Source: Nitrosospira briensis
GTDB lineage: Bacteria > Pseudomonadota > Gammaproteobacteria > Burkholderiales > Nitrosomonadaceae
DNA length: 64,000 nucleotides
Direction of reading: 5' to 3'
NCBI RefSeq assembly: GCF_900115125.1
Contig: NZ_FOVJ01000002.1
Coordinates: forward strand, 434,001-498,000
Position 1 is the stretch's first letter; every line of letters begins with the position of its first letter. Below the pieces are notes generated by a model. The model saw nothing but the letters and a program-made list of their open reading frames with translations. It was not told the origin of the DNA and did not search any database. Both the position numbers and the translations under genes were made by a program. Positions 50,827 through 53,266 of the stretch are shown in pieces.

Positions 50827-51594
50827 CTATTTTGCAACGCCCAGCAGCGCACCCCGCACCTGCAAATCGCGCATGATTTCCAATCCCCCTTGAATTACGA
50901 CTTCCGGCGAAGGGTGACGGCTTTCCTCGGCGACGATTTCGAGCGCGGCGCGACCCGTTTGCTCGGCAGGTATCAGGAGATTTATCAGGCGCGACGTAAA
51001 AGCATTGATTTCGATAAACCTGACCTGATCGGTGGCATCGCGAAATACCAGTAAACAAGTTTCAGCCGGTGTAACACGGGCACGCGGCGGACCAATGCGG
51101 TGTACCGGCCAGTTATAACGTAGATTGGCTAACGCCGGATTCATGACCGGGCGCTGCTCGAGCAAACTGCCTTCAGTGTCGATCGTTTCCCAGGCCGGGG
51201 TGTGCGTTGAAACGGAAAGCGCGAGTTCTACCCACTCATAGTGGGCAAGTTCCAGCGCGAATTCCGGATAACCAGCAGGAATGGCGCCGGTGCTTTGCAG
51301 GAATTGGATAAACTCATCGGGTATCTGGCGAAAAAAAGGAGAGCAACTATGGTGCGTGGCAAGAAAACGCCTAACGAGCCGTGCCCATCGGCGGCTTCCC
51401 AGCACTTTCCTGAGTACCGGGAAACAAGTCAGTAGAAAGCTTTCCAGATTGCTGTATACGAGCCTCCGGTATATCCCCATACGCCGCGCTTCGATGCCCC
51501 GCGGGCAGGGGTTCGCCTTCGGGTTGCGTATATGCGCGGTAAACGCGTATTGAAAGCGCTGAAATTCAGGAAGCGGCGCAGACATGGCTCGCAT
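50827..51594 (-). CDS. DUF2063 (HvfC/BufC-like) MNIO partner protein
   Basis: The 255-residue protein has the DUF2063 N-terminal domain (FQYAFTAHIRNPKANPCPRGI, RMGIYRRLVYSNLESFLLTCFPVLRKVLG) and a beta-rich C-terminal part (LVFRDATDQVRFIEINAFTSRLINLL). In characterised systems such as HvfBC and BufBC this partner binds the precursor leader and presents it to the MNIO enzyme. Its start overlaps the end of the DUF692 gene by about 29 bases, so the two are translationally coupled. ATG three codons later is an alternative start. The partnership here is inferred from family and context. Confidence 0.9.
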   Translation of the reverse strand: MRAMSAPLPEFQRFQYAFTAHIRNPKANPCPRGIEARRMGIYRRLVYSNLESFLLTCFPVLRKVLGSRRWARLVRRFLATHHSCSPFFRQIPDEFIQFLQSTGAIPAGYPEFALELAHYEWVELALSVSTHTPAWETIDTEGSLLEQRPVMNPALANLRYNWPVHRIGPPRARVTPAETCLLVFRDATDQVRFIEINAFTSRLINLLIPAEQTGRAALEIVAEESRHPSPEVVIQGGLEIMRDLQVRGALLGVAK

Positions 51595-52414
51595 TGATAT
51601 GACGGGACTGAATCAGGCCGATGTGTTCGACTTCACGCATCAACTCGTCGAGAGGAGGGATATTGAAGTCGCGCTCCAGCAGCGTGGGCACGACGCCATG
51701 GATATTATAGGTTTGATCGAGCAATGACCATACCGGGTCGATCACGTCCGCGCCGTGAGTATCGATAATGATGTTATCCGCTTCATTGTGATGGCCGGCC
51801 ATATGCATATAAACGACGCGGTCGGTCGGCATCGCACGGATGAACTCAACCGGATCATAACCATGATTCATACTGTTGACGTATACATTATTGACGTCGA
51901 GATGCAGGTCGCAGTCTGCCTCCGTCAATACCGCACGGATAAAGTCTGCTTCGCTCATTTCCGTAATGGGCGCACGTAAATAAAACGAGGCATTTTCGAG
52001 TGCGATGCGCTGTCCCAGGATATCCTGGGCGCGGCGAACGCGGGCCGCCACATATTTCACTGCTTCTTCGGTAAAAGGTATCGGGAGCAGGTCGTATAAA
52101 TGGCCGTCGTCAGAGCAGTACGAGAGGTGCTCGGTATAAAAGAGAATGTGATGCTGATCCAGAAACTGTCGGATTTTGTGAAGCAATACTTCGTCCAACG
52201 GCGCGGGGCTGCCGATCGAGAGTGATAAACCATGGCAGACAAAAGGGTAGCGCTCCGTGAAGGCGCGTAAATCGCGCCCCGCGGCGCCGCCGAGGTCAAT
52301 CCAGTTTTCCGGAGCGATTTCGAAAAAATCGATGGCTTCGGGAACGCGGGTTTTTAACGCTGGAATCAACTCGCGCCGAAAACCCAGTCCCACACGTAGC
52401 CGACCCGGGTTCAT
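51566..52414 (-). CDS. DUF692 multinuclear non-haem iron oxidase (MNIO; HvfB/BufB-like)
   Basis: The 282-residue TIM-barrel enzyme belongs to DUF692, the family of MbnB, HvfB and BufB, which use two or three iron ions and O2 to rearrange cysteines of precursor peptides. Likely metal ligands are His61 (CHGLSLSIGS), His96 (TEHLSYC), Glu140/Asn141 (ALENASFYL), Asp173 and Asn175/176 (LHLDVNNVYVN), His204/His208 (YMHMAGHH), Asp218 and His220 (DTHGADV) and the Glu of LLERDFNIP; all are present, so the enzyme looks active. It starts 14 bases after the EF-hand precursor-like gene and overlaps its DUF2063 partner. The expected substrates are the two small upstream proteins. Confidence 0.93.
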   Translation of the reverse strand: MNPGRLRVGLGFRRELIPALKTRVPEAIDFFEIAPENWIDLGGAAGRDLRAFTERYPFVCHGLSLSIGSPAPLDEVLLHKIRQFLDQHHILFYTEHLSYCSDDGHLYDLLPIPFTEEAVKYVAARVRRAQDILGQRIALENASFYLRAPITEMSEADFIRAVLTEADCDLHLDVNNVYVNSMNHGYDPVEFIRAMPTDRVVYMHMAGHHNEADNIIIDTHGADVIDPVWSLLDQTYNIHGVVPTLLERDFNIPPLDELMREVEHIGLIQSRHINASHVCAAS

Positions 52415-52428
52415 GGTAGCCAGTTAGA

Positions 52429-52827
52429 TTACTTCTTCATCCCGCCATGGGGCGCTGTGCCCGGCGGGGCGGAGCCAGGGCCTGGCTTGGTCCCGCCGTA
52501 GCTGTCAGCTTCTGGTTGGTCCACGGCACCGTCTTTGTTGGCGTCTATCCGGTCGAATATGGCTTCATGATGCTTGAGGAACTCTTCCTTCGTGACCTTG
52601 CCGTCCTTGTTGACATCTACCATCGACATGCCGCATCTGCCTTCGCCAGATTTTGATCCACCATATTTATTGGGATCTACCTTGTCCGCATAAGCGAGCA
52701 TATACCCCTTATCGAGAGATTGCATGGCGAAAGGGCTATCGGCAGCAGAAGCGACGGGGACGGTGCCGAGCGTTGCGGCAAAAGCAGAACCTATTGCGAC
52801 GGAAATGAGGGTTTTCTTGTAGCGCAT
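52429..52827 (-). CDS. Secreted EF-hand protein with one EGRCG motif: candidate hybrid RiPP precursor
   Basis: The 132-residue product begins with a signal peptide (IGSAFAATLGTVPVASAAD) almost the same as that of the EGKCG precursor upstream (AGSAFIVTLGAVPVASAAD), and both continue with PF..(H/S)LD.GYM. It then has GEGRCGM with its only mature cysteine at residue 65, followed at once by two complete EF-hand loops: D71-x-N73-x-D75-G-K-V-T-x-x-E82 and D95-x-N97-x-D99-G-A-V-D103-x-x-E106. A Gly/Pro/Thr-rich tail ends in GGMKK. AGGAGA seven bases before the ATG decides the start over an ATG 37 codons upstream. I infer it is a second substrate of the DUF692 enzyme that combines a modified Cys with Ca2+-binding loops. 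Confidence 0.85.
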   Translation of the reverse strand: MRYKKTLISVAIGSAFAATLGTVPVASAADSPFAMQSLDKGYMLAYADKVDPNKYGGSKSGEGRCGMSMVDVNKDGKVTKEEFLKHHEAIFDRIDANKDGAVDQPEADSYGGTKPGPGSAPPGTAPHGGMKK

Positions 52828-52886
52828 AGATCGTCTCCTAAAATTTTGGACAAATATTATGTCACAATTCCACGAGAGTGGGCCGT

Positions 52887-52924
52887 CGGCTTCCTTATGC
52901 TCGAGACCTCGCAAAGGGAAGCCG
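52887..52924 (-). other. Hairpin between the two precursor genes
   Basis: CGGCTTCC (52887-52894) pairs with GGAAGCCG (52917-52924) around a 22-base loop that itself contains CTCGAG. No T-run follows. It could set the ratio of the abundant first gene to the downstream genes by partial termination or RNA protection. Confidence 0.4.
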
Positions 52925-52971
52925 CCTCGACCGGGCAACTATAAGAATTTCATCAGGTGGAGTACTTTCTA

Positions 52972-53196
52972 TTATTTGCTGCCACCACACTTGCCTTCGC
53001 CGCACTTGCCTTCGCCACATTTGCCTTCGCCGTCTTTTTTCCCGCTGGATTCGCCAGCATCGGCGACCATATAGCCCGCATCCAGCGCATGCAACCCAAA
53101 AGGATTGTCAGCAGCCGAAGCGACGGGTACCGCGCCAAGCGTGACGATAAAAGCGGAGCCGGCGGCTACGGCTAGGATGGATTTTTTTCCAGACAT
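52972..53196 (-). CDS. Bufferin/HvfA-like RiPP precursor with three EGKCG repeats
   Basis: The 74-residue precursor has a Sec signal peptide (residues 1 to about 29, ending VASAAD), a linker NPFGLHALDAGYMVADAG and a core of three tandem EGKCG units (residues 57-71) with cysteines 60, 65 and 70, ending GGSK. EGKCG is the motif modified by MNIO enzymes in bufferins and in HvfA, giving copper-binding heterocycles from the cysteines. Here the modification and metal are inferred from motif and from the DUF692/DUF2063 genes downstream. AGGAG precedes the ATG, and a sigma-70-like promoter lies 43 bases upstream. The mature product of about 45 residues would be exported to the periplasm. Confidence 0.9.
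   Translation of the reverse strand: MSGKKSILAVAAGSAFIVTLGAVPVASAADNPFGLHALDAGYMVADAGESSGKKDGEGKCGEGKCGEGKCGGSK
52984..53028 (-). repeat. Three 15 bp tandem repeats coding for EGKCG
   Basis: The three EGKCG units are coded by near-identical 15 bp blocks (GAAGGCAAGTGCGGC and variants AAATGT, AAGTGT). The copy number could change by replication slippage and would add or remove one cysteine at a time without a frameshift. Confidence 0.9.
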
Positions 53197-53238
53197 GATG
53201 TTTCTCCTGTGTATGATTTGAAAGAATAGGAATGTCGT

Positions 53239-53266
53239 ATTGTACCCGTTGGGAAAGGGGTGTTAA
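53239..53266 (-). promoter_or_regulatory. Sigma-70-like promoter of the RiPP operon
   Basis: On the minus strand TTAACA (53266-53261) and TACAAT (53244-53239) are separated by 16 bases. A transcript would start near 53232 and give a leader of about 35 bases with AGGAG before the precursor ATG. No metal-regulator site such as a CueR palindrome was recognised. Confidence 0.55.

Follow-up and report, generated by a model that had tools for sequence, protein, structure and literature searches.

A two-precursor HvfABC-type operon and its conserved one-cysteine EF-hand precursor in Nitrosospira and Nitrosovibrio

Enzyme pairs of the HvfB and HvfC type oxidise the cysteines of EGKCG motifs to copper-binding 5-thiooxazoles (PMC13097082; PMC13419390; PMC12538549). 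In the closest described systems, oxazolin (HvfABC, Haemophilus influenzae), fontiphorin (FonABC) and the captophorins, a Sec-leader EGKCG precursor is combined with an HvfB-type multinuclear non-haem iron oxidative enzyme (MNIO) and a DUF2063 partner (PMC13097082; PMC13419390). The oxazolin signal peptide is reported to be leader-like, as in bufferin (PMC13419390), and a lipidated EGKCG product has been described with a change of -12 Da for three motifs (PMC12636315). In the strict sense, bufferins are the members of the DUF2282 and 6/12-Cys families; precursor genes in tandem and as orphans have been noted among bufferins, and EGKCG|EF-hand chimaeras have been published (PMC12452194). Here we analysed a 64,000-nucleotide stretch of the Nitrosospira briensis genome (contig NZ_FOVJ01000002.1, positions 434,001 to 498,000; hereafter the window), in which four minus-strand genes, hvfA1, hvfA2, hvfB and hvfC, run from position 53196 down to 50827 (Table 1). 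Sequence comparisons argue strongly that they form an operon for a ribosomally synthesized and post-translationally modified peptide (RiPP) of the already published oxazolin/captophorin (HvfABC) type, with two precursors. What is new is the arrangement in the Nitrosospira/Nitrosovibrio clade (23 genomes; hereafter the clade), with a one-site hvfA2 as the constant precursor and a 14-mer upstream of it; the class and the chimaeras are published.

An initial annotation, made from the letters of the window, had described an MNIO and DUF2063 RiPP operon of bufferin/HvfA type, with a coding overlap between its DUF692 and DUF2063 genes, a precursor with three EGKCG units and no DoxX-type gene, and in its HvfA part this description was borne out. 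HvfB scores 433 bits against NF003818 (HvfB, cut-off 360) and 354 bits against PF05114, HvfC scores 272 bits against NF050145 (cut-off 142) and also matches PF09836 and PF22106, and the two genes share 29 nucleotides (nt), hvfB ending at 51566 and hvfC starting at 51594. The three-EGKCG precursor, HvfA1, passes NF050137 (KCGExKCG_twice; 24.1 bits, cut-off 19.5) and has a Sec-like signal peptide (VASA|AD, judged by eye), the leader NPFGLHALDAGYM and no EF-hand. Bufferin proper was rejected, as DUF2282 occurs in 0/23 clade genomes and HvfB remains below the cut-off of the BufB model (269 bits, cut-off 310), and with it that half of the earlier label. HvfB further aligns along most of its length to PDB 3bww (269 bits) and keeps the HGLSLS, HLS, EN, HLDVNN, H-AGH, DTHG and LLERDFN blocks, those bearing His, Glu and Asp presumably holding the metal ligands, and HvfC matches PDB 3dee at 60.5 bits. 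The locus therefore carries an HvfB-type MNIO, an HvfC/DUF2063 partner and a repeated-EGKCG precursor with signal peptide, the features of the class, whereas unlike oxazolin, fontiphorin and the captophorins it has a second precursor, a chimaera that joins a single site to EF-hands, and an unlinked third one, and lacks DoxX, which is frequent but not universal in the class: no DoxX gene lies inside the operon, and the single match in the genome is unlinked. Conversion of EGKCG cysteines to copper-binding groups, also anticipated in the annotation, agrees with the type of the enzyme pair, and the likely product chemistry can now be specified as 5-thiooxazole (PMC13097082; PMC13419390).

Among 125 Nitrosomonadaceae genomes, 97 have an hvfB match (G002 and G003 at 33% identity only), and all 23 clade genomes have one. 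Throughout the clade neighbourhoods (12-kb regions of 21 genomes, the window and a 3.4-kb contig of G108) hvfC lies behind hvfB, and the operon is thus a conserved unit and no chance set of genes. A gene tree of 63 precursor rows separated the hvfA2 orthologues (B; support 99) and an unlinked orphan precursor (C; support 98), and placed the hvfA1 type (A) among precursors of other genera with weak support (62). B stands directly before hvfB in 22 of the 23 genomes, with one Cys after the leader in 22/22, and A occurs in 11, with three to six Cys each and an additional unlinked copy in G095. All 23 genomes have the orphan; 19 of these orphans contain one Cys, and those of G094, G103, G106 and G115 contain at least two. 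Orphan Cys were counted up to the EF-hands only, which gives three for G103, as against five when its orphan is not cut there. The constant precursor of the clade is hence hvfA2, and the three-EGKCG peptide is the optional one. On the hvfB tree, of whose 20 inner branches four are strongly supported, presence or absence of A changes five times, as against 7.9 times in shuffles.

In 12/23 genomes hvfA2 is the sole EGxCG-type open reading frame (ORF) found within 4.5 kb before hvfB. Besides B and C, a genome-wide profile search of these 12 returned nothing but five weak relatives, namely four EF-hand proteins without Cys (L225, L226, L228 and L229) and one His-rich protein without EGxCG (G107). 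The orphans of G106 and G115 have more than one Cys, which leaves 10/23 genomes where only one-Cys precursors were found. A tandem EGKCG DNA pattern matched our own genome only at hvfA1. A tandem EGxCG pattern (up to two mismatches) matched in 12/23 genomes, and among the 12 genomes without A only in G106 and G109, where the matches fall inside hvfA2 and a Ser codon replaces that of the first Cys; the pattern is not exhaustive, having missed 2/11 A genes (G095 and G099), and its reversed control gave one match (G100). The four Cys-less weak relatives are small EF-hand proteins from G097, G098 and G100.

In the initial annotation HvfA2 had figured as another secreted protein, carrying one EGRCG; the site is present, the EF-hands had been overlooked, and the protein proves to be the conserved precursor. 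It possesses a Sec-like signal peptide and the leader SPFAMQSLDKGYMLAYAD, a signal peptide/leader region held in common with HvfA1, followed by the single EGRCG (Cys65), two EF-hands and a C-terminal MKK. Motif positions E, G, C and G are all invariant in 22/22 orthologues, as is the MKK end, and the distance from Cys65 to the first Asp of EF loop 1 is six residues, a spacing constant in 22/22; the ligand positions D95, N97, D99 and E106 of loop 2 are invariant in 21/21 aligned rows. PF13202 and PF00036 match above their cut-offs and the EF-hand pair model PF13499 below (24.7 vs 30), and HvfA2 gave no match to NF050137. By these models and by eye, it is of the Buf_EGKCG|EF-hand_5 type, with an EGKCG-type segment, then two EF-hands, in an MNIO operon. 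In AlphaFold2 models, block means of 76-85 are confined to residues 71-110, the remainder lying below 50, and a helix starts, at low confidence, two residues after Cys65.

The hvfA2 gene evolves as slowly as the enzyme genes. Its ratio of non-synonymous to synonymous substitution rates (dN/dS) is 0.04-0.07 against three relatives and 0.04-0.06 against two close ones, compared with 0.06 for hvfB and 0.06-0.07 for hvfC against the two close relatives. For hvfA1 the ratio is 0.16-0.22 against two relatives, with a dN about 2.5 to 3 times that of hvfA2 for the same two; dS was often near or above 1, so that all these figures are rough.

Three further ideas on hvfA2 were not kept. Membership of the lanmodulin family, whose structure 6mi5 is the best PDB sequence match of the EF-hands (window 52510-52617; 32.7 bits), was rejected on a model score of 21.9 bits against a cut-off of 135. 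The idea that a Cys-to-Ser change had removed a second Cys from hvfA2 (EGKSGEGRCG in G109; EAKSG in G106, G110 and G114) was dropped, since many hvfA1-type proteins likewise have KSG or KAG ahead of their first EGKCG. Lastly, a Cys-to-EF spacing fixed in all chimaeras did not hold in a comparison covering 8 of 29 loci, five of which have a spacing of 6 and the others 8, 9 and 16; the script gave 6 in 4/8, having skipped the first loop of L197, which was read by eye.

Upstream of hvfA2 lies the 14-mer TGTGACATAATATT, which occurs exactly once per genome in 22/23 clade genomes, always at hvfA2 by position, and is absent from G112, the clade genome without hvfA2; the reversed pattern occurs in 0/23. 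The longest invariant upstream run is 14 nt for hvfA2 (22 rows) and 5 nt each for hvfA1 (11 rows) and the orphan (22 rows, G104 being left out), the 5-nt run common to the latter two being the ribosome-binding site. A comparison with the upstream regions of dksA, which share no run, and of pnp, located in only 9, was too weak to be used. In G094, G104, G105, G107, G111 and G113 the hvfA2 start was set at an inner ATG and not at an upstream GTG, so that "upstream" includes some coding bases. The 14-mer reads as a putative extended -10 promoter of hvfA2, taking TRTGnCATAAT as the extended -10 consensus, and variants such as TGTGACGTAATATT are found upstream of a precursor in another genus. Our sigma-70 scan demands a -35 and hence is unable to report it. 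The promoter-like site annotated earlier upstream of hvfA1, TTAACA-16-TACAAT, is present; because the region's count of such sites (5 observed) lies within the range of shuffles (3.2 +/- 1.8), this site alone is no more than chance.

Table 1. Coordinates of the operon and its features in the window.
Feature	Position	Strand	Remarks
hvfA1	52972..53196	-	74-aa (amino-acid) precursor, three EGKCG
hvfA2	52429..52827	-	132-aa precursor chimaera; ATG start preceded by AGGAG
hvfB	51566..52414	-	282 aa, HvfB-type MNIO (DUF692)
hvfC	50827..51594	-	255 aa, HvfC-family partner (DUF2063)
Three EGKCG units of hvfA1 (Cys60, Cys65, Cys70)	52984..53028	-	positions counted from translation
EGRCG site of hvfA2 (Cys65)	52630..52644	-	sole Cys after leader in 22/22 orthologues
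EF-hand loop 1 DVNKDGKVTKEE, residues 71-82	52582..52617	-	best stretch of PF13202 (39.5 bits) and PF00036 (34.7 bits)
EF-hand loop 2 DANKDGAVDQPE, residues 95-106	52510..52545	-	judged by eye, canonical loop
Invariant 14-mer TGTGACATAATATT	52853..52866	-	25 nt before hvfA2 start; extended -10-like
Sigma-70-like TTAACA-16-TACAAT, upstream of hvfA1	53239..53266	-	consensus scan, 10/12 matches

Sequence establishes the genes, their families, the common leader, the conserved single Cys, the EF-hands and the 14-mer; that the peptides are modified, exported and bind copper, that the 14-mer acts as a promoter, and every role proposed below, we infer. From these features and by analogy with the described systems, we consider it probable that the operon makes thiooxazole-type, copper(I)-binding products from two precursors, with HvfA2 as the main substrate. 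HvfA1 and HvfA2 would be made with a signal peptide and a common leader recognised by HvfC, and HvfB-HvfC would convert every EGxCG cysteine by oxidation into a 5-thiooxazole, with a loss of about 4 Da per site. Sec would then bring the products into the periplasm, and there each thiooxazole would bind copper(I) through its thiol. HvfA1, with three sites, might serve as a buffer, and HvfA2, with one site beside two EF-hands, as a defined carrier or sensor holding one copper per protein or dimer, being the substrate for which the clade mainly retains the enzyme pair. An extended -10 promoter of their own may drive the hvfA2-hvfB-hvfC genes, hvfA1 being an addition ahead of them. Because the leader is common to all three, A, B and C are likely substrates of HvfB-HvfC.

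A wider set of relatives (80 loci, of which those with an MNIO or EGxCG-type match, plus 13 others, were examined) bears on what retains the Cys of hvfA2. Two hvfA2 relatives at 62% identity, L115:4001-4387 from a Nitrosomonadaceae bin and L120:4001-4396 from a betaproteobacterial bin, keep the leader/AYAD segment, both EF-hands and the MKK end and have no Cys, the site being replaced by EDKYG in L115 and GGGYG in L120 (Tyr for Cys). No credible hvfB match lies in the 8.4-kb locus of either, the extent of the search in these genomes; two broken hvfC-like pieces stand directly behind the gene in L115, and the 14-mer was not found in either locus (best matches with 4 and 5 mismatches). The enzymes have apparently been lost here and the EF-hand protein retained, and the motif has gone along with the enzymes, a hint that hvfA2 owes the retention of its Cys to them. 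On account of these two Cys-less relatives we slightly raised our estimate that both precursors are modified, with HvfA2 as main substrate, and lowered that of modification confined to HvfA1.

Several points weigh against the proposed scheme. In vitro, FonBC acted on a peptide with two repeats and left one with a single repeat unmodified, while some variant two-repeat peptides were modified once (PMC13097082), and in our judgement a lone thiooxazole would be a poor copper(I) site. L115 and L120 have common neighbours (by eye rsmI-like and nrdA-like), and their Cys losses may be a single event; retention of the EF-hand body without the Cys site further shows that the protein body is useful on its own. 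The enzymes are also retained in G112, where the precursor is of A type and hvfA2 is absent. The 14-mer comes without a conserved -35 and may instead be an operator or messenger RNA element. The HvfA2 model is weak overall, with a mean predicted local distance difference test score (pLDDT) of 55 and a value below 50 at Cys65, and none of the 16 Foldseek matches obtained with it at an E limit of 10 fell below 0.001. We favour an enzyme pair with laxer needs that would modify one-site precursors, rather than their being left unmodified, because hvfBC persist in genomes where no other precursor was found and because the relatives without the enzymes have lost the motif.

The metal served is a separate matter, on which a copper role of the operon appears likely by analogy. 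The thiooxazole proteins could instead answer another stress (iron, gold, oxidative stress or calcium signalling), a minority possibility that we take seriously: EfhP (PA4107, Pseudomonas aeruginosa), which combines EF-hands with EGKCG, senses calcium and is linked to the uptake of iron (PMC11559002), and gold and oxidative stress also induce thiooxazole pathways, although the products characterised so far are generally copper-binding (PMC13097082). By its description EfhP resembles HvfA2, and it has four EGKCG where HvfA2 has one site.

For the host, the earlier designation as an ammonia oxidiser fits in that its genome holds two genes of the PF13447 type, which we take to be the hydroxylamine oxidoreductase family, and in that AmoA is present in 16/23 clade genomes; AmoA was not found in our own 20-contig draft (99.7% complete). 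Because genomes of one to four contigs (e.g. G094, G095, G096 and G105) show three AmoA matches of equal score, this absence is likely an assembly gap caused by repeats. The central enzyme of ammonia oxidisers needs copper, and the operon might, in line with the initial annotation, buffer copper for ammonia monooxygenase.

A more specific role, which we hold to be unlikely, is that of HvfA2 as a calcium-coupled copper(I) sensor or carrier in place of a buffer: with its one thiooxazole exactly six residues ahead of EF loop 1, calcium filling of the EF-hand would set copper affinity or dimer state. If true, no earlier captophorin substrate would have worked through a single site in each folded protein, and HvfA2 would have a genome-unique promoter element to itself. 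If HvfA2 is modified at all, calcium and copper handling would be linked in ammonia oxidisers.

Also unlikely is that only poly-EGKCG proteins of the HvfA1 type are modified, HvfA2 being a periplasmic calcium-binding protein with its leader by descent and its Cys a plain thiol (e.g. for disulphide dimers). The FonBC result on the one-repeat peptide (PMC13097082) would be explained, as would relatives that lack the site and keep leader or EF-hands, implying that the body has its own use; yet the 12/23 genomes without an hvfA1-type gene near hvfB still hold hvfB and hvfC, and E, G, C and G are invariant across the 22 orthologues, the motif being lost in the two relatives without adjoining hvfB. 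That HvfA1 here is a decaying copy on its way out we regard as improbable, for while EF-hands are present in 8/11 hvfA1-type proteins and missing from those of our own genome, G110 and G114, its dN exceeds that of hvfA2, and 12/23 operons lack the type, the three EGKCG are intact, dN/dS is well below 1 as given above, and the short form is common to three genomes.

In the cited papers the characterised EGKCG products are peptides with many sites, and two repeats were required in the one minimal-substrate test described there. Published EGKCG|EF-hand chimaeras likewise combine an EGKCG-type segment with two EF-hands and an MNIO, whereas hvfA2 has one site at a fixed distance to EF loop 1 and is constant in its clade; none of the EGxCG-type chimaeras examined outside Nitrosomonadaceae has fewer than two Cys, and L141, with one EGKCG and one further Cys, comes closest to a single site. 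The bulbicupramide system MmrABC (Microbulbifer) similarly links an EGKCG precursor, an MNIO and DUF2063 to copper, with a precursor that unlike hvfA2 has five to eight Cys, and the text of that paper contains neither "EF-hand" nor "DoxX" (PMC12538549). Among the literature matches listed, in a search covering papers without their supplements, we found no publication on the operon in the Nitrosospira clade and no description of the one-site clade-constant arrangement or of the 14-mer. A clade keeping the enzymes with one-site precursors makes the two-repeat rule directly testable. Furthermore, copper-binding study of many-site peptides has been hampered by aggregation (PMC13097082), and a one-site protein, if modified, would be a tool for studies of copper binding by thiooxazoles.

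Around the operon, the neighbouring genes read were dksA, pnp and a methyltransferase, none of them a copper gene (no search for copper operators was made). A plasmid home was dropped, as tblastn gave no match in the plasmid collection.

The orphan of our own genome (L086:8799-9353; G000:C10, about 216.8 kb) encodes a single EGRCG, EF-hands and a His/Gly/Tyr-rich tail ending LPHMRQMGQ, and all MNIO matches of the genome lie away from it. Close to the orphans of G108 (L093:2501-2917) and G107 (L094, around 9720) are orphan relatives that keep leader and tail and lack EGRCG, the one in G107 being very His-rich. Also identified were His-rich EF-hand relatives without EGxCG in Nitrosomonas (L136, L137, L138, L140, L142, L144 and L146) and at L147, with a Cys before EF loop 1 in settings such as HQCEHKM, CPHMM or CSQKM and no hvfB match within these loci. 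Finally, a second, divergent MNIO domain is encoded in our own genome by a 494-aa ORF (L103:8001-9485; G000:C10, about 513 kb; 141.5 bits to PF05114), upstream of which lies a small phage-terminase-like ORF, named by eye.

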